A stretch of DNA of 29,048 nucleotides, taken from positions 1 to 29,048 of the IMG/VR virus record IMGVR_UViG_3300042923_000278; one strand, given 5' to 3'. Numbering within the stretch: the stretch's first letter is position 1; every line of letters begins with the position of its first letter. A model generated the notes under the pieces. It had not been told where the DNA came from, ran no database searches, and saw only the letters and a program-made list of their open reading frames with translations. Positions 16,510 through 29,048 of this stretch are shown piece by piece. This DNA is from a virus. The translations under genes and the position numbers were made by a program.

Positions 16510-19263
16510 ATGACTAGGCAGGTCAAGGCAGAACTGGCCATCGGCTACCAGCAGTACGTCGAGGGGATGAAGAAGGCTGCTGCTGCTACCCGCGAGACGG
16601 CCACTGAGGCGCAGAATCTCGCGGATCAGCGCGAGGCGTTCACTCTCCTTGGTCGCACGGCGCTTGCGTCGGGTGCGGTCATCGCGGCGGGGCTGACTGT
16701 CGCGGTCGCGAAGTTTGCCGAGTTCGACCAGGCGATGTCGAATGTTGCGGCGACTGGTGAGGATGCCCGCGACAACATCGAGGGGCTGCGGGACGCGGCT
16801 CTTGAGGCCGGCGCTACGACGGTGTTCTCTGCCACGGAGTCGGCCAACGCGATCGAGGAACTGGCGAAGGCGGGGCTGGACGCTTCGGAGATCCTGGGCG
16901 GCGCCCTGAAGGGGTCGCTGGACCTCGCCGCTGCCGCTGGTATCGGTGTGGCGGAGGCGGCGGGTATTGCCGCGACCACGCTTCAGCAGTTCAAGCTTGA
17001 CGGTAGTGACGCGACGCATGTCGCTGACCTTCTGGCTGCCGGTGCGGGCAAGGCCATGGGTGACGTGGGCGACATGTCGCAGGCGCTTGCGCAGGCGGGG
17101 CTCGTCTCTGACCAGTTCGGTGTGTCCGTTGAGGAGACGGTCGGGACTCTGTCGGCTTTTGCGTCGGCTGGTCTGCTGGGTTCGGACGCTGGTACGTCGT
17201 TCCGGACGATGCTTCTGCGTCTCGCGAACCCCACTGGTGAGGTCCGCGACCTCATGAAGGAGATCGGGTTCGAGGCTTACAACGCTCAGGGCCAGTTCAT
17301 CGGGCTCTCGGGTCTGGCGGGCGAGCTCGAGACGTCCCTCGCAGGGATGACGGATGAGCAGAAGCAGACGACTCTGGCGATGATCTTCGGTCAGGACGCG
17401 ATCCGTGGTGCAACAGTCCTTTACGAAGAGGGCGCGTCAGGCATCAACGACTGGACTGACAAGGTCGACGACGCCGGCTACGCGGCTGAGACCGCGGCGA
17501 CCAAACTGGACAACTTCAAGGGCGACTGGGAGGCGCTGTCTGGTGCCGTTGACACTGCCCTGATCTCGATGGGTGAGGCCGCGGATGGACCGCTGCGGTT
17601 CTTCACGCAGGGTCTCACGACGCTGGTCGACAAGTTCAACGAGATCCCTGCGGCGGGGCAGCAGGCCGTGTTCTGGATTGGCGCCGTGGCGGGCGCGACG
17701 GGCCTCGCTTACGGGGCATATCTGCTGCTGATCCCGAAGGTAGCTGAGTTCAACGCGGCTCTCGAACTGATGAGCCCGCGCACCCAGTCTGTGGCCAAGG
17801 GTCTCGGCATGATCGCGAAGATTGGTGGCGGCGCTATTGCAGGCCTGGCAGTCGGCGTGGTTGCGCTGGACGCTCTCACCCAGGCGCTGAAGGACATCGG
17901 TCCCGAGGCTGAGGAAGTCGCGAACAAGGTAGTGTCAGCGCGCACTGCGGTGGATCTTCTGGCGTCCTCGGCTGGCAAGTTCGGCGGCTCTGGGATCGAG
18001 CTTGCCACTAAGCAGCTCGAAGAGTTGGGCGCCGTGCTGGATCGGGGCGGCGCTACCGGAGCCGGTGACATCATCGGCAATTCGACGATCTCGAACCTGC
18101 AACTGCTCGGTACCGAGCTGGGGAAGATCGCTGAGTCGGACCTGCCCGCGGCGCAGCGTCAGTTCCGCCTGCTTGCTGAGGCGGGGAATCTGACCGAGAA
18201 GCAGCAGTTGCTTCTTTTGGATCAGATGCCGGCGTACAAATCGGCTCTGACTGAGCAGGCGACCGCTTCGGGTGTTGCCGCAACTGGTCAGGAACTTCTT
18301 GACCTGGCGTTCGGCAAGTCCGAGGAGTCCACCAAGGACAACGAGGATGCGCTGCGCGCGCTGGCCGGGCAAGCGTCGATTACCGGCGAGGGAATCGACG
18401 ACCTGGCCAACCAGATCCGCAACTTCGGGTCCGCAACACTGAGCGTCCGTGACGCGCAGCGTCAGTTCGAGCAGGCTACCGACGATGTGTCGGATGCGGT
18501 TCAGCGTCAGATCGAGGAGTTCATCAAGCCGCAGGAGGATGCCTACCTCGCGGCGAACGGCAGCCTTGACGGGTTTGTGGCTTCGATGGAGGGGTTCATC
18601 CCGACGTTGGACACGACGACCCAGTTGGGGCGTGACGCTGAGGCGTCGCTGGATGACCTCGCTGAGTCGACTCTCGAACTGTCGGCCGCAACGATCGAGC
18701 AGACGGGTTCGCAGGAGGACGCCAACGCGATCATCGCGGACGGCCGTCAACGTCTGATCGACATGTTGGCTCAGTTCGGTATCACGGGGCAGGCTGCGGA
18801 GGACTATGCGGACGACCTGGGCTTGATCCCGGCCAACGTGGAGACTGCGGTTGAACTTACTGGTGTCGAGACGGCCGAGAAGGAGCTCGCGTGGCTTACG
18901 CGTCGGCGTGAGGCGCAGATCGCGGTGTCTACGTCGGAGCCTCGGCTGCGTGATGGTGCCGCGTCTGGTGGTCGTGCCTATGGTGGCGAGATTTCCGGCC
19001 CGGGTGGGCCTACTGATGACTCTGCTGGCCTGTATCGGCTGTCAGACGGTGAGCATGTTCTGACCGCCGCGGATGTGGACGCGATGGGTGGCCAGCATGC
19101 GGTGTACGCGTTCCGTGACGCTCTGCACTCTGGTGGCGGGGGTGGGGCGGGGCCGGCTGTCTATCTCACACAGAACATTTACCCGACGCCAGGCATGAGC
19201 GAGGAACACATCGGCCGTATCGCGGCTGAGCGGACTGCTTTCGCGGCAAGGGGGAACGGATGA
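16510..19263 (+). CDS. Tape measure protein (TMP1)
   Basis: The ATG at 16510 has GGAGGG upstream. The 917-residue product has a helical N-terminus, hydrophobic segments near residues 50-70 and 378-402 (AVFWIGAVAGATGLAYGAY), and the TP901-type core between them (KFAEFDQAMSNVAATGED, FRTMLLRLANPTGEV, LAMIFGQDAIRG). A long Ala/Glu/Gln-rich helical region follows. The C-terminus is Gly-rich (GGRAYGGEISGPGGPTDD) with a Tyr/His end. It sets tail length and helps DNA entry. At about 0.15 nm per residue it would give a tail near 135 nm (inference). It is homologous to TMP2. Confidence 0.95.
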   Translation: MTRQVKAELAIGYQQYVEGMKKAAAATRETATEAQNLADQREAFTLLGRTALASGAVIAAGLTVAVAKFAEFDQAMSNVAATGEDARDNIEGLRDAALEAGATTVFSATESANAIEELAKAGLDASEILGGALKGSLDLAAAAGIGVAEAAGIAATTLQQFKLDGSDATHVADLLAAGAGKAMGDVGDMSQALAQAGLVSDQFGVSVEETVGTLSAFASAGLLGSDAGTSFRTMLLRLANPTGEVRDLMKEIGFEAYNAQGQFIGLSGLAGELETSLAGMTDEQKQTTLAMIFGQDAIRGATVLYEEGASGINDWTDKVDDAGYAAETAATKLDNFKGDWEALSGAVDTALISMGEAADGPLRFFTQGLTTLVDKFNEIPAAGQQAVFWIGAVAGATGLAYGAYLLLIPKVAEFNAALELMSPRTQSVAKGLGMIAKIGGGAIAGLAVGVVALDALTQALKDIGPEAEEVANKVVSARTAVDLLASSAGKFGGSGIELATKQLEELGAVLDRGGATGAGDIIGNSTISNLQLLGTELGKIAESDLPAAQRQFRLLAEAGNLTEKQQLLLLDQMPAYKSALTEQATASGVAATGQELLDLAFGKSEESTKDNEDALRALAGQASITGEGIDDLANQIRNFGSATLSVRDAQRQFEQATDDVSDAVQRQIEEFIKPQEDAYLAANGSLDGFVASMEGFIPTLDTTTQLGRDAEASLDDLAESTLELSAATIEQTGSQEDANAIIADGRQRLIDMLAQFGITGQAAEDYADDLGLIPANVETAVELTGVETAEKELAWLTRRREAQIAVSTSEPRLRDGAASGGRAYGGEISGPGGPTDDSAGLYRLSDGEHVLTAADVDAMGGQHAVYAFRDALHSGGGGGAGPAVYLTQNIYPTPGMSEEHIGRIAAERTAFAARGNG
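18564..18690 (+). repeat. 127-bp exact direct repeat, copy 1 (inside TMP1)
   Basis: These 127 bases are identical, base for base, to 28922-29048 at the very end of the window; the preceding base differs (G here, C there). Both copies lie in the same reading frame of a tape measure gene. The offset is 10,358 bases. Identity stays high for another 116 bases upstream with only three differences in total. Confidence 0.97.
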
Positions 19264-20514: not shown

Positions 20515-20586
20515 GCGTGCTTCGCGATCAATGCGGTTAGCGTGAACGTCTTGCGGATGTCGGACGTCCGGAGTAACGTCTATCGC

Positions 20587-21960
20587 GTGACCACCGTTCT
20601 GTATACCCGCATCAGCCAGGACAAGACCGGCGCCGAAGCCGGCGTCGAGCGGCAGGCGAAAGAGTGCCGCGAGCTTGCCGAGCGCCGGAACCTCTCAGTG
20701 GTTCGCGAGTTCTCCGACAACGACATCTCGGCGTACAGCGGGAAGCGCCGACCCGGCTTCGAAAGCCTGCTCCAGGCGGTTCGCGATGGTGCTACTGACA
20801 CGATCCTGGTGTGGCACCCCGATCGGTTGTACAGGCGCTCGTCGGATCTCGAACTACTCATTGATCTCGTAGAGAAACAGCGAATCAAGATCGTCTCCGT
20901 CACGGCGGGCGACTTCGACCTGAACACGGCAACGGGTCGAGCTGTCGCGAGGACGCTCGTCGCGTGGTCTGGCTTCGAAGTTGAGCAGAAGGCCGACCGG
21001 CAAAAGTCTGCGTACCGTCAGATGGCAGAGAACGGTGGTTGGCACTTCTCTCACAGGCCATTCGGCTACGAGCGAGTCGACGGGAGCATCACTCAGGTAC
21101 CGGATGAGATCGCGGTCTTGCGAGACATCCTGACGCGGTACTACGTGAACCTCGAGTCGCGGCACTCGTTGATGAGGGACCTCAACGCCCGCGGGATCGT
21201 GACGCCGAAGGGAAAGCCGTGGGGCATCATTCAACTTCGCGACGTGCTCACGAATGACCGATACGGCGGTGTGGTGACCCACAACGACCAGATCATCGAC
21301 GTGAAGCCCTCATGGGAACCGGTCATCGACAAGGGCACCTGGCTCGGTTGGAGGTCGGCAGCGGCTAAGCGTAAGCGCAAGTCCACGTTCTCGGCGGCAC
21401 GGTACCTACTCACAGGTGTCGCACGCTGCGGAGTCTGCGGCGCCGCCTGTTTCGTGAAGCACCGCGCAGACAAGGGCCTGTCGTACTTCTGCTCTGAGTT
21501 GGCCTGCGTTCAGCGTTCGGTACCCGCCGTGGACTCGCTCGTGGAGAGCATCGTGATCGCACGACTTGGGATGCCTGACGCTCGCGAGGCCCTGCGTCCG
21601 CCTGCCGAGTCGACCACTCACCTCGCACAAGAGCTTGAGGCGCTGGTATCTCGCTCTGATTCGCTAGCAATCCTCGTGGCTGATGGCACATTGAGTGCGG
21701 ACGCCGCACGCGATGCTGCGAAGCCGCTCCGCACCCGGGCCGATGCCCTTCGTGCACAGATCGACGCCCAGCAGTCACGCATGACGATTCCGGACGACCT
21801 CCTGACGGGGGATGTCGCAGAGAAGTGGACGGCGCTATCGCTCACGAAGAAGCGTGCGGTGATTCGCGCGCTTATGCGAGTCTCGATCGACCGGCAGGCA
21901 AACCCCCGACGTTTCGACCCGTCAGCCGTCCGCATCGAGTGGTTGTCGGGAGACGGATAG
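20587..21960 (+). CDS. Large serine integrase
   Basis: The family N-terminus (VLYTRISQD, catalytic Ser at residue 10) places the start at GTG 20587; the frame is open to GTG 20542, and neither has a strong ribosome site. The 457-residue product has the resolvase domain (DNDISAYSGKRRPGF; WHPDRLYRRSSDLE; ARTLVAWSGFEVEQKADRQK), a recombinase domain (HFSHRPFGYERV, LNARGIVTPKG), a zinc ribbon (CGVCGAACF then CSELAC) and a C-terminal coiled-coil portion. It integrates DNA at attP/attB without host factors. It makes the element temperate or satellite-like. Confidence 0.95.
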   Translation: MTTVLYTRISQDKTGAEAGVERQAKECRELAERRNLSVVREFSDNDISAYSGKRRPGFESLLQAVRDGATDTILVWHPDRLYRRSSDLELLIDLVEKQRIKIVSVTAGDFDLNTATGRAVARTLVAWSGFEVEQKADRQKSAYRQMAENGGWHFSHRPFGYERVDGSITQVPDEIAVLRDILTRYYVNLESRHSLMRDLNARGIVTPKGKPWGIIQLRDVLTNDRYGGVVTHNDQIIDVKPSWEPVIDKGTWLGWRSAAAKRKRKSTFSAARYLLTGVARCGVCGAACFVKHRADKGLSYFCSELACVQRSVPAVDSLVESIVIARLGMPDAREALRPPAESTTHLAQELEALVSRSDSLAILVADGTLSADAARDAAKPLRTRADALRAQIDAQQSRMTIPDDLLTGDVAEKWTALSLTKKRAVIRALMRVSIDRQANPRRFDPSAVRIEWLSGDG

Positions 21961-22473: not shown

Positions 22474-22857
22474 ATGACGACACTGCGCATCATCTGCGAC
22501 GGCGGGCGGGAACGCTCGCACACGGCTGCCGAACTCGCAGTCATCGAGTGGATGCCCGCCGACTTCGAGTCCAAAGGCCTAGCGATATGGGACGCCAAGG
22601 AGCGCCCAAAGGGCCTGACAATGTCGGTGAAGGGCGACTCGACCAGCCGATCCGGGCGATCGGACGCGCCGAGGCGGGTGATCCACCGCACCAAGGCAAC
22701 CATCACCACGCGATCCAATGGCGGTCTGACCGTCCACGTGCCAGCGTGCCCCCGATGCGCCACGCCAGCTCGAGCCATCCGCGACACCAAGCTCCGGGAG
22801 TACCTGGAGGCAAACCGCGACACGCCGGACATCGCTCTAAACATGGCACTTATGTAG
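22474..22857 (+). CDS. Hypothetical 127-residue protein with CPRC motif
   Basis: The ATG at 22474 has GGGGAG upstream. The product starts TTLRIICDGGRERSHTAAEL, has a basic middle (STSRSGRSDAPRRVIHRTKA) and a CPRC motif near residue 93, with an earlier Cys at 9, that could form a partial zinc site. The C-terminus (LREYLEANRDTPDIALN) is helical. A family role is not known. The stop lies within the first copy of a 12-base repeat (22845-22856). Confidence 0.6.
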   Translation: MTTLRIICDGGRERSHTAAELAVIEWMPADFESKGLAIWDAKERPKGLTMSVKGDSTSRSGRSDAPRRVIHRTKATITTRSNGGLTVHVPACPRCATPARAIRDTKLREYLEANRDTPDIALNMALM

Positions 22858-22887
22858 TAGGCTTTCGAACAAAGGTACTTATGTACC
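22845..22887. promoter_or_regulatory. Direct repeat GGYACTTATGTA, possible operators
   Basis: GGCACTTATGTA (22845-22856) and GGTACTTATGTA (22874-22885) differ at one base and start 29 bases apart, close to three helical turns. The second also forms the dyad GGTAC-TTAT-GTACC (22874-22887). The spacing on one face of the helix suggests a dimeric regulator binding ahead of the next operon. A possible weak promoter (TTGTCG 22930-22935, TAATCG 22954-22959) lies downstream. Confidence 0.4.
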
Positions 22888-23190: not shown

Positions 23191-23498
23191 ATGCCGAAAC
23201 CCCCGCAGTGCGGGGGCTCGAGAACTCTGCTGGCGGGCGGGTTCAATACCAGGATATCGTCACCCGCTTTCTCGCGGGTGAACTGCAACCGCACGAACTC
23301 CCGTGGCCGCTTCCCCTCCTCTGGAACGACGCATTTCATGTCGGTCAGGCCCGAGCGCAAGCCCGTATCGATCGCGCTGAGCGTGCCGCAGACGTCTACT
23401 ACGACATGTGGGTGAACGGGGATGAGGCGCGTAAGCGTCACACCGAACTCCTCAAGCACTTCGACGTGGTGCAGGCGCGCAAGGCGGTGAGCGCATGA
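23187..23498 (+). CDS. Hypothetical 103-residue protein before the ATPase
   Basis: The GTG at 23187 overlaps the upstream stop. The product has LPWPLPLLWNDAFHVGQ then a charged helix (ARIDRAERAADVYYDMWV). It is coupled to the DUF3631 gene by ATGA overlap, so it may partner the ATPase. No family recognised. Confidence 0.6.
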   Translation: MNAETPAVRGLENSAGGRVQYQDIVTRFLAGELQPHELPWPLPLLWNDAFHVGQARAQARIDRAERAADVYYDMWVNGDEARKRHTELLKHFDVVQARKAVSA

Positions 23499-24667
23499 GC
23501 ATCGCTGTTCCGTATGTTCCGGATGTTCCGTACCTGGAAGAGAAGGCGGGCGCCGCTGTTCTCGATCAGATCCGGTGTTACCTCGAGCGGTTCGTCGCTT
23601 ACCCCACCGAGTGGGCATCGGCGGCTCACGCGCTGTGGATTGCCCACGCTCACGCAGTAGATGTCTTCGAGAACACACCGCGGATCGGCTTCATCTCACC
23701 TGAGCCCGGGTCGGGGAAGTCGCGTGCGCTCGAGATGACGGAGGCCCTTGTGCCTCGTGCGGTGTTGAGCGTGAACGCCTCGACCGCGTACATCTTCCGC
23801 AAGATCAGTGACGAGGCCGGCCTGCCGACGCTGCTACTCGACGAGGTGGATGCGATCTTCGCCAACGGCAAGAGCGACGCCTCAGAAGACCTTCGCGGGT
23901 TGCTGAACAGTGGCTATCGTCGCGGCGCGACTGCCGGGCGGGCGGCGATTCGGGGGAAGGAGATCGTCACCGAAGAATGGCCGTCGTACTGTGCCGTCGC
24001 ACTTGCCGGGCTGAACCAACTGCCCGACACCCTCATGACGCGGTCCGTCGTGATCCGCATGAAACGGCGACGCCCCGACCAGCGGGTAGAGCCATACCGA
24101 CGTCGCGTGAACGGTATCGAATCCGACCAGTTGCATATCGTCCTGGCCGAGTGGGTTGACACTGTCCGCTCGGAGCTCGAGACGGCGTGGCCGCAACTGC
24201 CCGATGAAATTCAAGACCGCGATGCGGATGTCTGGGAGCCGCTTCTCGCCATGGCGGACGCAGCGGGCGGGGACTGGCCCGGGGTCGCACGAGAGGCTGC
24301 TCTCGCCGCGGTTGCTGAGTCCAAGTCCAAGCCCTCATCGCTGGGCGTGCAGTTGCTTGCTGACATTCGGAAGCTGTTCTCCGACGTTGACCGGATGAGC
24401 ACGACGGAGATTCTCGACCGACTCCACGACATGGACACCGCCCCATGGTCGTCGGTGCGGGGTGAACCCATCGACGCGAGGTTCGTGGCCCGGATGCTCG
24501 GCAAGTACGAGATCGAGCCGACGAAGCTGCGTATCGGGACGCTAACAGTCCGCGGGTATCACCGGTCGTCGTTCGTCGATGCCTGGGAGCGCTACTGCCC
24601 CTCCTCCCCTGTTCCCCAGGAAGCGGAACATCCGGAACATCCGGAACAGGACGAGGAGCCGTGGTGA
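23495..24667 (+). CDS. DUF3631-type ATPase, probable replication helicase/primase partner
   Basis: The ATG at 23495 overlaps the upstream stop. The 390-residue protein has Walker A SPEPGSGKS (68-76) and Walker B LLLDEVDA (D116, E117), followed by SYCAVALAGLNQLPDTLMTRSVVIRMKRR, where the Arg residues fit an AAA-type sensor/arginine finger. The C-terminal half has a winged-helix-like section (MSTTEILDRLHDMD, FVARMLGKYEIEPTKLR). DUF3631 proteins accompany primases in phages, plasmids and satellites. The first and last codons carry a shared repeat sequence in opposite orientation. Confidence 0.85.
   Translation: MSIAVPYVPDVPYLEEKAGAAVLDQIRCYLERFVAYPTEWASAAHALWIAHAHAVDVFENTPRIGFISPEPGSGKSRALEMTEALVPRAVLSVNASTAYIFRKISDEAGLPTLLLDEVDAIFANGKSDASEDLRGLLNSGYRRGATAGRAAIRGKEIVTEEWPSYCAVALAGLNQLPDTLMTRSVVIRMKRRRPDQRVEPYRRRVNGIESDQLHIVLAEWVDTVRSELETAWPQLPDEIQDRDADVWEPLLAMADAAGGDWPGVAREAALAAVAESKSKPSSLGVQLLADIRKLFSDVDRMSTTEILDRLHDMDTAPWSSVRGEPIDARFVARMLGKYEIEPTKLRIGTLTVRGYHRSSFVDAWERYCPSSPVPQEAEHPEHPEQDEEPW
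23507..23530. repeat. Inverted repeat left copy at ATPase gene start
   Basis: This 24-base stretch is built of GTTCCGKAT-type units and encodes the VPYVPDVPY start of the ATPase. Its reverse complement occurs at 24624-24647 with one mismatch (23 of 24 identical). Confidence 0.9.
24624..24647. repeat. Inverted repeat right copy at ATPase gene end
   Basis: CGGAACATC units encode the EHPEHPEQ end of the ATPase. The stretch is the reverse complement of 23507-23530 except one base, so the coding region is bracketed by a 24-base inverted repeat about 1.1 kb apart. Confidence 0.9.
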
Positions 24668-24837
24668 CCGCGTTCCGGGTGTGGCTCGAGACCTGTAAGG
24701 GCTGCACCCCCTGGACCCGTGTCGTCAGTCACCCGACGACGAACGAACCGATAGTCCAGGCCCTCCACGAGGACGAATGTCATGTCTGGCCGAAGCAGCA
24801 GCGGTCTGACGGTCAGGAGGTTGACCGTGCGCTCTGA
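24664..24837 (+). CDS. Hypothetical 57-residue protein
   Basis: The GTG at 24664 overlaps the ATPase stop. The product has FRVWLETCKGCTPWTRVV with a CxxC, a later CHVW, and an acidic end. A Cys/His site for a metal is possible. The end of the gene overlaps the WhiB start by 11 bases and contains its AGGAGG site. Confidence 0.6.
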   Translation: MTAFRVWLETCKGCTPWTRVVSHPTTNEPIVQALHEDECHVWPKQQRSDGQEVDRAL

Positions 24838-25078
24838 CAAGGGAGAAGCCGAGTACGCCGTACTGGTCGAAGCGATGGAGACCGTTCGGCCCGCCTGCCG
24901 CGACTACGAACTGTTCACGGCAGACCAAACCGACGCCGCACAGCGCGAGCTCGCCCAACGCCTCTGCGCATCGTGCCCGCTGGTCGACGCATGCCGTGCG
25001 TATGCCGAAGCATCCAAACCCACTGTCGGCATCTGGGCCGGAATCCCCTACCCCCGACGCGGAAGGACAACACCGTGA
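24827..25078 (+). CDS. WhiB-family Fe-S transcriptional regulator
   Basis: The GTG at 24827 has a perfect AGGAGG six bases upstream; the frame is open earlier without such a site. The 83-residue product has the four WhiB cysteines (24, 47, 50, 56; C-x22-C-x2-C-x5-C), which would bind a 4Fe-4S cluster, and the GIWAGIPY turn (68-75) followed by a basic C-terminus (PRRGRTT). WhiB proteins bind the sigma factor and regulate actinobacterial genes; phage copies can repress host whiB or block superinfection (known for TM4 WhiB). It is strictly actinobacterial. Confidence 0.93.
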   Translation: MRSDKGEAEYAVLVEAMETVRPACRDYELFTADQTDAAQRELAQRLCASCPLVDACRAYAEASKPTVGIWAGIPYPRRGRTTP

Positions 25079-26523: not shown

Positions 26524-26871
26524 ATGCATGAGCCGTCACGTTCCAGGTGGGACATGTGGAGTCGTCACACGGACGACCCCCGGGGGTTCTTCTCGTGGCG
26601 CCTGCCGGCCGGTGCCGGTGCAGACGTGTTATCTGCGGGCGAGATCGACCGGTTGAAGGCGCTCCCGAATGAAGCGCTCATCGACCTTCTGGACCGGGTC
26701 GACGTCGCGGTGAAGGAACTGACGTCGCTGAAACAGCAGCTTGCGTCGCGGTGGGTGATTGAGCGGGTCTGCCCATCGTGCGCGGGCGCGGTGCACGGGC
26801 GCTCGGACAAGCGGTACTGCTCGCGTGCATGTCAGCAGCGGGCCTACATGGCACGGAAGAAGGAGAACTGA
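26524..26871 (+). CDS. Zinc-ribbon protein, 115 residues, upstream of second tape measure
   Basis: The ATG at 26524 has GAGAGGGG upstream. The protein has an N-terminal Trp-rich segment (SRWDMWSRHTDDPRGFFSW), a helical middle (IDRLKALPNEALIDLLDRV) and a C-terminal zinc ribbon CPSC then YCSRACQQRAYMARKK (Cys 83, 86, 99, 103). The CSRACQQRAYxxRKK end is common in actinobacterial small DNA-binding proteins. It sits where a siphovirus would have tail chaperones, and none is present here. Confidence 0.7.
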   Translation: MHEPSRSRWDMWSRHTDDPRGFFSWRLPAGAGADVLSAGEIDRLKALPNEALIDLLDRVDVAVKELTSLKQQLASRWVIERVCPSCAGAVHGRSDKRYCSRACQQRAYMARKKEN

Positions 26872-26873
26872 AT

Positions 26874-29048
26874 ATGACTAGGCAGGTCAAAGCTGAACTG
26901 GCTATCGGGTACCAGCAGTACGTCGATGGGATGAAGAAGGCCGCTGCGGCGACCCGGGAGACGGCTACTGAGGCTCAGAAGCTTGCGGAGCAGCGGGAGG
27001 CGTTCACGCTCCTGGGTCGTGGCATCGCTACCGCCGGCGGTCTTGCAGTCGTGGGCTTGGGTGTGGCTGTGGCGAAGTTTGCGGAGTTCGACCAAGCGAT
27101 GTCGAATGTTTCGGCGACTGGTGAGGATGCTCGGGACAACATTGAGGCGCTGCGTGATGCGGCGCTCGAGGCCGGCGCTACCACGGTGTTCTCTGCCACG
27201 GAGTCGGCCAACGCGATTGAGGAGCTGGCGAAGGCTGGCCTTGACGCGTCGGAGATCCTTGGCGGTGCACTGACGGGGTCTCTGGACCTTGCTGCGGCTG
27301 CTGGTATCGGTGTGGCGGAGGCGGCGGCGATTGCTGCGACCACCCTCCAGCAATTCAGCCTTGACGGTAGTGACGCCACGCATGTGGCTGACCTTCTGGC
27401 CGCGGGTGCGGGTAAGGCCATGGGTAACGTGGGCGACATCTCGCAGGCGCTTGGTCAGGCGGGTCTGGTTGCGGATCAGTTCGGCGTCTCAGTTGAGGAG
27501 ACGGTGGGTTCTCTGTCGGCGTTCGCGTCAGCTGGACTGCACGGTTCCGACGCTGGTACGTCATTCCGGACGATGCTTCTCCGGCTCGCCAACCCCACGG
27601 GCGAGGTGCGCGATCTCATGAAGGAGATCGGGTTCGAGGCGTACAACACTCAGGGCCAGTTCATTGGTCTGTCAGGTCTGGCGGGCGAGCTCGAGACGTC
27701 CCTTGAGGGGATGACGGACGAGCAGAAGCAGACCACTCTGGCGATGATCTTCGGTCAGGACGCCATTCGCGGCGCGACGGTTCTCTACGAAGAGGGCGCG
27801 GCCGGTATTGAGGACTGGACGAACAAGGTCGACCATGCGGGGTATGCGGCTGAGACTGCGGCGACGAAGCTGGACAACTTCAAGGGTGACTGGGAGGCGC
27901 TGTCTGGTGCCGTCGACACCGCCCTCATCTCGATGGGCGAGGCGGCGGATGGACCCCTCCGGTTCTTCACGCAGGGTCTCACGGATCTAGTCGACAAGTT
28001 CAACGAGATGCCTGCCGCGGGTCAGCAGGCCGTGTTCTGGATCGGTGCCGTTGCGGCAGCGGGGGCAACCGCGCTCGGGTCGTATCTGCTGCTGGTGCCC
28101 AAGGTTGCTGAGTTCAACGCTGCGCTGGATGTGCTGGGGCCTTCCGCTCAGCGTGCCGCCCGCGGCGTGGGGGCGCTGTCGCGCGTCGGGGCGCTTGGCG
28201 TCACGATTGGAGCCGCAGCAATCGGAGTCGACTGGCTCGCACAGGAGATCTCGCAGAAGCTCCTCCCGTCCGTGGATCAGGTCGATAACAAGATGCGATC
28301 GGCTAAGTCCGGCGTGGAGTTGTTTGGCGCCGCGCTCTACAAGGAGGGCATCACCAACACCCAGCAGGCGGGAACTCTTCTCGAGGATCTGGGAAAGAAC
28401 CTCGACGCCGTCGCGGACAGTGATTTCTGGCACCCGGCGGAGCTTTCGGGGACTGCGGTAACCGTCATCAAGTCGATAGCCGAAACGGCCAAGGCAGATC
28501 TGCCCGGCGCCATCGCTCAGTTCCGCCAGCTTGCCGAGGACGGGAACCTGACAGAGAAGCAGCTTCGCACGATGATCAAGACCGTCCCGGAGTTGCAAGA
28601 CGCGTTGCTCGGTTACGCGGACACCAGTAAGGGTGCGGCGGACGCGCAGGACCTCCTGAACATCATCATGGGCGATTCGGAGGAGACCACCGAGGACAAC
28701 ACGGACGCTCTGAGGGCGTTGGCGGGGCAGGCATCTATCACGGGCGAGGGCATCGATGCGCTGGCTGACCAGATCCGTAACTTCGGTTCGGCGACCCTGA
28801 GTGTTCGTGACGCGCAGCGTCAGTTCGAGCAGGCTACCGACGATGTGTCGGATGCGGTTCAGCGTCAGATCGAGGAGTTCATCAAGCCGCAGGAGGATGC
28901 CTACCTGGCTGCGAACGGCACCCTTGACGGGTTTGTGGCTTCGATGGAGGGGTTCATCCCGACGTTGGACACGACGACCCAGTTGGGGCGTGACGCTGAG
29001 GCGTCGCTGGATGACCTCGCTGAGTCGACTCTCGAACTGTCGGCCGCA
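26874..29048 (+). CDS. Second tape measure protein (TMP2), 3' truncated by window end
   Basis: The ATG at 26874 has AAGGAG upstream, and the frame is open through the last base (725 codons). The protein starts MTRQVKAELAIGYQQYV as in TMP1 and follows it closely through the TP901-type core and the hydrophobic segment VFWIGAVAAAGATALGSYLL. It diverges at about residues 408-600 and returns to near identity at residues 640-725. The last 127 bases are identical to TMP1. If joined to 18691 onward, it makes a complete 915-residue protein in frame. It lacks upstream chaperone genes. Confidence 0.9.
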   Translation, partial: MTRQVKAELAIGYQQYVDGMKKAAAATRETATEAQKLAEQREAFTLLGRGIATAGGLAVVGLGVAVAKFAEFDQAMSNVSATGEDARDNIEALRDAALEAGATTVFSATESANAIEELAKAGLDASEILGGALTGSLDLAAAAGIGVAEAAAIAATTLQQFSLDGSDATHVADLLAAGAGKAMGNVGDISQALGQAGLVADQFGVSVEETVGSLSAFASAGLHGSDAGTSFRTMLLRLANPTGEVRDLMKEIGFEAYNTQGQFIGLSGLAGELETSLEGMTDEQKQTTLAMIFGQDAIRGATVLYEEGAAGIEDWTNKVDHAGYAAETAATKLDNFKGDWEALSGAVDTALISMGEAADGPLRFFTQGLTDLVDKFNEMPAAGQQAVFWIGAVAAAGATALGSYLLLVPKVAEFNAALDVLGPSAQRAARGVGALSRVGALGVTIGAAAIGVDWLAQEISQKLLPSVDQVDNKMRSAKSGVELFGAALYKEGITNTQQAGTLLEDLGKNLDAVADSDFWHPAELSGTAVTVIKSIAETAKADLPGAIAQFRQLAEDGNLTEKQLRTMIKTVPELQDALLGYADTSKGAADAQDLLNIIMGDSEETTEDNTDALRALAGQASITGEGIDALADQIRNFGSATLSVRDAQRQFEQATDDVSDAVQRQIEEFIKPQEDAYLAANGTLDGFVASMEGFIPTLDTTTQLGRDAEASLDDLAESTLELSAA
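28922..29048 (+). repeat. 127-bp exact direct repeat, copy 2 (window end)
   Basis: Identical to 18564-18690 and ending exactly at the last base. From 28806 onward (243 bases) there are only three differences to TMP1 (28907, 28910, 28921). The exact length matches a common assembly k-mer, so this may be an assembly-graph junction. Confidence 0.97.

Follow-up and report, generated by a model that had tools for sequence, protein, structure and literature searches.

RepAM, the replication initiator of actinomycete integrative elements (AICEs, e.g. pMEA300), belongs to the DUF3631 family, is sometimes encoded next to Prim-Pol, and has been predicted to act as a rolling-circle initiator (PMC3218068). 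In the SCCmec helicase Cch2, which is a 3′-to-5′ helicase, the C-terminal domain binds three 5-nt iterons within a stretch of 23 bp beside the helicase's own gene; the iterons are needed for DNA unwinding, and inverted repeats are dispensable for binding (PMC7581432). Since three 5-nt iterons fill 23 bp as 5+4+5+4+5, their spacing is 9 bp, the same geometry as in the locus described here. The iterons of SaPI Rep/PriRep1 are also recognized by the C-terminal domain, and the protein is thought to bind as two hexamers (PMC7581432, citing Ubeda et al. 2007).

The analysis covered a 29,048-base virus record from IMG/VR (the window). This DNA encodes a protein of the same Pfam family as RepAM of pMEA300-type elements; for RepAM rolling-circle initiation is predicted in the literature, whereas the predicted fold of the window protein is an MCM-like AAA+ ATPase, which the rolling-circle prediction (PMC3218068) does not fit. 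The locus resembles that of Cch2 in its three short iterons, their 9-bp spacing and their association with the helicase's own gene, and the 3′-to-5′ polarity of Cch2 is like that of MCM. However, the Cch2 iterons are intergenic and form a single direct array with the core AAGTG, whereas the window contains two inverted, intragenic arrays with the core GTTCC. The structure of SaPI PriRep1 (7pds) matches the model of the window protein, but SaPI origins lie downstream of rep and the window arrays lie inside the gene. MCM replicative helicases share an AAA+ core and a C-terminal winged helix with the model, but they are loaded by other factors, and the window protein has no room for the N-terminal MCM domain. 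Among the traits of SaPI/SCC-type systems, short iterons (5 nt, three in 23 bp) in the helicase gene are present in the window and an AT-rich stretch next to them is absent. The locus is probably of a known kind, that of initiator-gene iterons of a self-loading helicase (SaPI/SCC/RepAM-type); its new features are the embedding of the arrays in the coding sequence and a readable code of two bases and two residues. The oriV of pMEA300 was reportedly placed within repAM by te Poele et al. in 2006. The papers that were consulted contain no account of the two-base code, the wide occurrence of the arrays or their altered positions.

Inverted 9-bp arrays within a DUF3631 gene

The gene and the two arrays within it are as follows:

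23495..24667, plus strand: DUF3631/RepAM-family initiator (390 aa), predicted MCM-like AAA+ ATPase with a C-terminal winged helix
23507..23529, plus strand: left putative iteron array, three GTTCC cores at 9-bp spacing, encoding VPYVPDVP
24625..24647, minus strand: right putative iteron array, three GTTCC cores at 9-bp spacing, encoding EHPEHPE on the plus strand

A first-pass annotation of the window had pointed to a 24-base inverted repeat here. The repeat exists at the positions given, both arms lying within the open reading frame, but its arms are 26 nt long: the left arm (23505–23530) is CTGTTCCGTATGTTCCGGATGTTCCG and the right arm (24624–24649) is CGGAACATCCGGAACATCCGGAACAG, with 25 of 26 positions complementary and 1093 nt between them. 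Chance alone would give about 3e-5 such arm pairs across the whole window. Tandem Repeats Finder detected a 9-nt tandem array of approximately three units in each arm, as the annotation had described. In the nearest relative (L005), which differs by 9.4% in DNA and is 96% identical in protein, six of six GTTCC cores are kept and changes in the arms are confined to the 4-nt spacers. The near-perfect match between the arms of the window is a by-product. Directly past the stop codon, at 24672–24676, there is a lone GTTCC followed by G, perhaps a remnant of a third ‘+’ array known from homologues.

The protein matched PF12307 (DUF3631) with E = 9e-58 and 195.9 bits (curated cut-off 24). Its AlphaFold model has a mean pLDDT of 91.8, falling to ∼60 at both ends, which are predicted to be disordered tails. 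Fold searches with the model retrieved MCM chains at VIA Z 15–17 (identity of 10–18% in aligned rows) and SaPI PriRep1 (7pds, E = 1e-5); model and searches together indicate an AAA+ helicase core and a C-terminal DNA-binding domain.

Other genes of the window encode a terminase, a tape measure protein, an excisionase-like protein and a serine recombinase of the phage serine integrase type (20542–21960). The tape-measure gene occurs twice (16510–19263 and 26763–29048, where the end of the contig truncates the second copy), with DNA 85–91% identical over long stretches; this may reflect a duplication or the joining of two related phages in one contig. A WhiB-like regulator gene at 24782–25078, after the DUF3631 gene, indicates an actinobacterial host. 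The lowest-GC stretch of the contig (22826–22887), ∼0.6 kb upstream of the DUF3631 gene, contains two 21-nt direct repeats (22836–22856 and 22865–22885) and the palindrome GGTACTTATGTACC at 22874–22887, and is probably the operator/promoter of an early operon.

GTNNC arrays in DUF3631 homologues

Relatives of the gene were collected from 4 and then 19 viral loci and from 53 bacterial loci, and 71 genes were scanned for 5-mers recurring every 9 bp. Searches of family and gamma-class genomes added few loci, and the class search of G003 gave the same genomes as that of G001. Three-residue units recur in tandem throughout the tails of the homologues, in pairs whose DNA sequences are reverse complements of each other: EHPEHPEQ is paired with VPLVPDVP (L011), SATSATSAT with VADVADVA (L077, L046), SVT with DVT (L017, L027), and a GTS frame with a VPD frame (L061). 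In 46 of the 71 genes, a GTNNC core was found in both orientations at 9-bp spacing. Each locus has a single NN dinucleotide, which varies from one locus to another (TC, AG, AA, TA, TG, GG, TT, GA, AC). With the orientation of NA classes (GTTAC/GTAAC) assigned from flanking bases, the oriented unit is TGTNNCGnn, in which the leading T is present in 84% and the G after the core in 80%.

The arrays occupy varying places. Usually a ‘+’ array lies at gene position ∼750, where it encodes a helix of the ATPase domain, and a ‘–’ array at ∼1075, in the C-terminal tail; a further ‘+’ array is often found at ∼1120–1200 or directly 3′ of the gene. The window, its nearest relatives (L005, L006, L009, L012) and L015 have an N-terminal ‘+’ array instead. 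The arms are about 46–130 nt apart in several homologues, versus 1.1 kb in the window. In two complete circular Streptomyces plasmids, which carry FtsK/TraB, Prim-Pol, DUF3631 and integrase genes together with GTNNC arrays, the ‘+’ array lies in the non-coding gap that separates the DUF3631 gene from the gene after it.

The 9-bp scan did not detect an array pair in 25 of the 71 homologues, some of which probably have degenerate arrays and others (e.g. L047–L056 and L066–L073) perhaps none. Streptomyces-type DUF3631 genes (L217, L220, L221, L224, L228, L225, L231) have Gln351 and GGGAC or GGTAC in TGNNNCGG units, and judging from these cores another base, besides the two N, may also be variable. 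Because this clade fits the GTNNC template poorly, it was excluded from the residue–base code described below.

Core bases covary with residues 344 and 351 of the predicted wing

The part of the gene that encodes the candidate DNA-binding domain contains these features:

24341..24595, plus strand: codons of the predicted C-terminal winged helix (residues 283–367, from model secondary structure), putative iteron-binding domain
24524..24526, plus strand: Lys344 codon, on the first wing strand; covariation with the GTNNC second N, where K is present if and only if that base is C
24545..24547, plus strand: Thr351 codon, on the second wing strand; covariation with the GTNNC first N, where A accompanies V/I and either T or G accompanies T/S

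When the identity of each alignment column was regressed on shared NN, with overall identity as a covariate, residues 351 and 344 came out on top, both above the permutation limit. The top column is residue 351 for the first N and residue 344 for the second. Positions 193, 271 and 274 also exceeded the permutation limit; 271 and 274 were rejected as code residues because they covary only through the internal array that encodes them. The association was evaluated in 131 proteins on a tree built without these regions. Valine or isoleucine at 351 occurs only with A as the first N (28/0), and 13 of 15 independent contrasts on the tree were concordant, none discordant and two tied (p = 1.2e-4). Lysine at 344 is found if and only if the second N is C (10/0 versus 0/52; contrasts 5/5), asparagine or aspartate only with G (21/0) and glutamine only with T (2/0). 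These pairings also held in nineteen loci fetched afterwards, several of them close relatives of one another: A accompanied V/I in 10 of 10 cases, C accompanied K in 2 of 2, G accompanied N/D in 8 of 8 and T accompanied Q in 1 of 1. A locus with same-direction arrays only (L264) also combines K344 and T351 with GTTCC.

In the model, residues 344 and 351 are located on the β-hairpin (strands 343–347 and 350–356) that forms the wing of the C-terminal winged helix, and are flanked by conserved R346 (80%) and K/R353 (93%); judged by the register of the strands, all of these should point to the same face. A lysine opposite the G that pairs with C is expected protein–DNA chemistry. By the residue–base covariation, the C-terminal domain is a candidate for sequence-specific recognition of the iterons.

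Inverted 9-bp arrays beyond DUF3631

A search of viral contigs with GTTCCnnnnGTTCCnnnnGTTCC alone was too unspecific (at least 120 matches, mainly unrelated repeats). A pattern defined by DNA only (three GGAAC at 9 bp, an interval of 65–95 bp, and two GTTCC) retrieved 67 viral loci, compared with five for a control with a 10-bp period, and the 67 loci mostly adjoin primase/helicase genes. The interval between the arrays averages 10.6 percentage points below the GC content of the locus and is lower in 56 of the 67 loci; lower GC is seen in most non-DUF3631 loci. Among the 34 genes that end at or over the arrays, the families matched were Toprim_3 (14), DUF7146 (11), DUF5906 (7), VapE-like (5), AAA_25 (2), Prim-Pol (2) and DUF927 (1). 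The paired 9-bp layout probably marks the origins of several initiator families. Proteins of ∼980 aa with intragenic GGAAC/GTTCC inverted arrays near the 3′ end of their genes were also observed (L291, L296, L302, L305, L310–L314, L322, L327); where scanned, they matched Toprim_3/DUF7146, and this family appears from its sequences to be another case of an origin within a gene.

Constraint on the arrays and alternative explanations

The arrays are conserved as DNA. At least five GTNNC units in inverted 9-bp arrays were present in 37 of the 71 genes, whereas shuffling of synonymous codons within each gene, which preserves the proteins, left a mean of 1.5 genes (200 trials, maximum six). When periods from 6 to 30 were compared, a period of 9 gave 37 genes, 18 gave six, and all others gave none. 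The same motif is read in differing frames (EHP, GTS, SAT and SVT; VPD, VAD and DVT) and also occurs outside open reading frames. These results refute a peptide-only explanation, to which we assign an extremely low probability and in which the protein would need VPD- or EHP-type tails and the DNA repeats would follow from low-complexity peptides; most arrays do fall in tails predicted to be disordered, a frequent setting for tandem peptides, but those of the window are filled with less-used codons (GTT, 18% of Val; TAT, 16% of Tyr). The first-pass annotation had considered the repeats hard to explain by protein needs, and this view is borne out: the homologues, rather than keeping the same peptides over diverged DNA, keep the DNA motif while peptide and frame change. 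Pairing of the arms in mRNA or as a cruciform, regulating expression or folding the DNA, would account for the complementarity in the window and for the short distance between arms in several homologues. Spacers in opposite arrays, however, match in 21% within a locus and 17.5% between loci, and none of 43 loci has identical spacer sets. Arm-to-arm identity is therefore not selected, which argues for a protein-binding motif and not for a hairpin; base–residue covariation is likewise not predicted by pairing, and we regard a hairpin as very unlikely. Overall, the arrays are consistent with a protein-binding site and not with a hairpin, cruciform or recombination arms.

An invertible segment, or recombination sites that mobilize the gene as a cassette, had also been suggested by the annotation, and the inverted repeats do flank the gene, with a phage serine integrase, the possible mediator, 1.5 kb upstream. 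We give this explanation almost no weight, because inversion between the arms would break the reading frame, the close relative L005 has the same orientation, and identity between arms extends no further than the 5-bp cores; the position of the arrays shifts along the gene among homologues, often into the ATPase core, so they bound no cassette. Matching arms around a fixed segment, as expected of an invertible element, were not found, since spacers are unmatched and array positions variable. Less easily dismissed, although still unlikely in our judgment, is that the arrays are bound by the gene's own protein for autoregulation or handcuffing, with the true origin elsewhere, e.g. in the AT-rich stretch 22826–22886. 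Intragenic sites could block transcription, and this lowest-GC stretch of the contig bears operator-like repeats. Moreover, an AT-rich stretch is absent between or beside the window arrays (GC of 0.58–0.73 across the gene), the GC skew of the window has no turn at the DUF3631 gene, and neither GC-skew nor low-GC scans of the window gave an origin signal there. On the other hand, paired arrays in other initiator families enclose an interval of lower GC immediately downstream of the helicase gene, which is the usual layout of an origin, and in Cch2, the best tested relative, unwinding requires the equivalent repeats, which form a putative origin (PMC7581432).

A predicted origin embedded in its initiator gene

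We consider it very likely that the repeats of the window are iterons of a replication origin that lies inside the coding sequence of the DUF3631/RepAM initiator that binds them. An iteron-like origin had been one of the options listed in the first-pass annotation, and it is strongly supported by DNA-level conservation, frame independence and covariation with wing residues. In the mechanism that we propose, the two inverted arrays of three 5-bp GTTCC cores would be bound by the initiator's own C-terminal winged helix, with the winged helices of neighboring subunits docking on the three cores of an array. On two arrays in opposite orientation, two hexamers would come to sit with opposite polarity, after which the helicase, a predicted MCM-like hexamer, would melt the DNA and start replication of the temperate actinophage. 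With the origin inside the coding sequence of the initiator, gene and origin would travel together.

We also lean, with less assurance, toward a single origin grammar, inverted arrays in which a 5-bp core recurs every 9 bp, common to DUF3631 and probably to D5/DUF5906, VapE-like, DUF927 and Toprim helicases. Specificity would be set by a wing code: base 3 of GTNNC would be read by residue 351, and base 4 by residue 344. With origins placed inside open reading frames, compatible replicons could diverge through paired changes in two residues and two bases. If this is true, pairings of origins and initiators would be predictable from sequence, and for many prophages and integrative elements the residue-to-base code could reveal the origin specificity and probably the incompatibility group. 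The VTSVTSVT, SATSAT, EHPEHP and VADVAD tails common on such proteins would be explained as DNA sites and not as peptide motifs. It would be a sign of the strength of the DNA element that it shapes the protein sequence of an ATPase helix (residues 266–276 in many homologues). An odd repeat would become a testable origin for a widespread family labeled as of ‘unknown function’.
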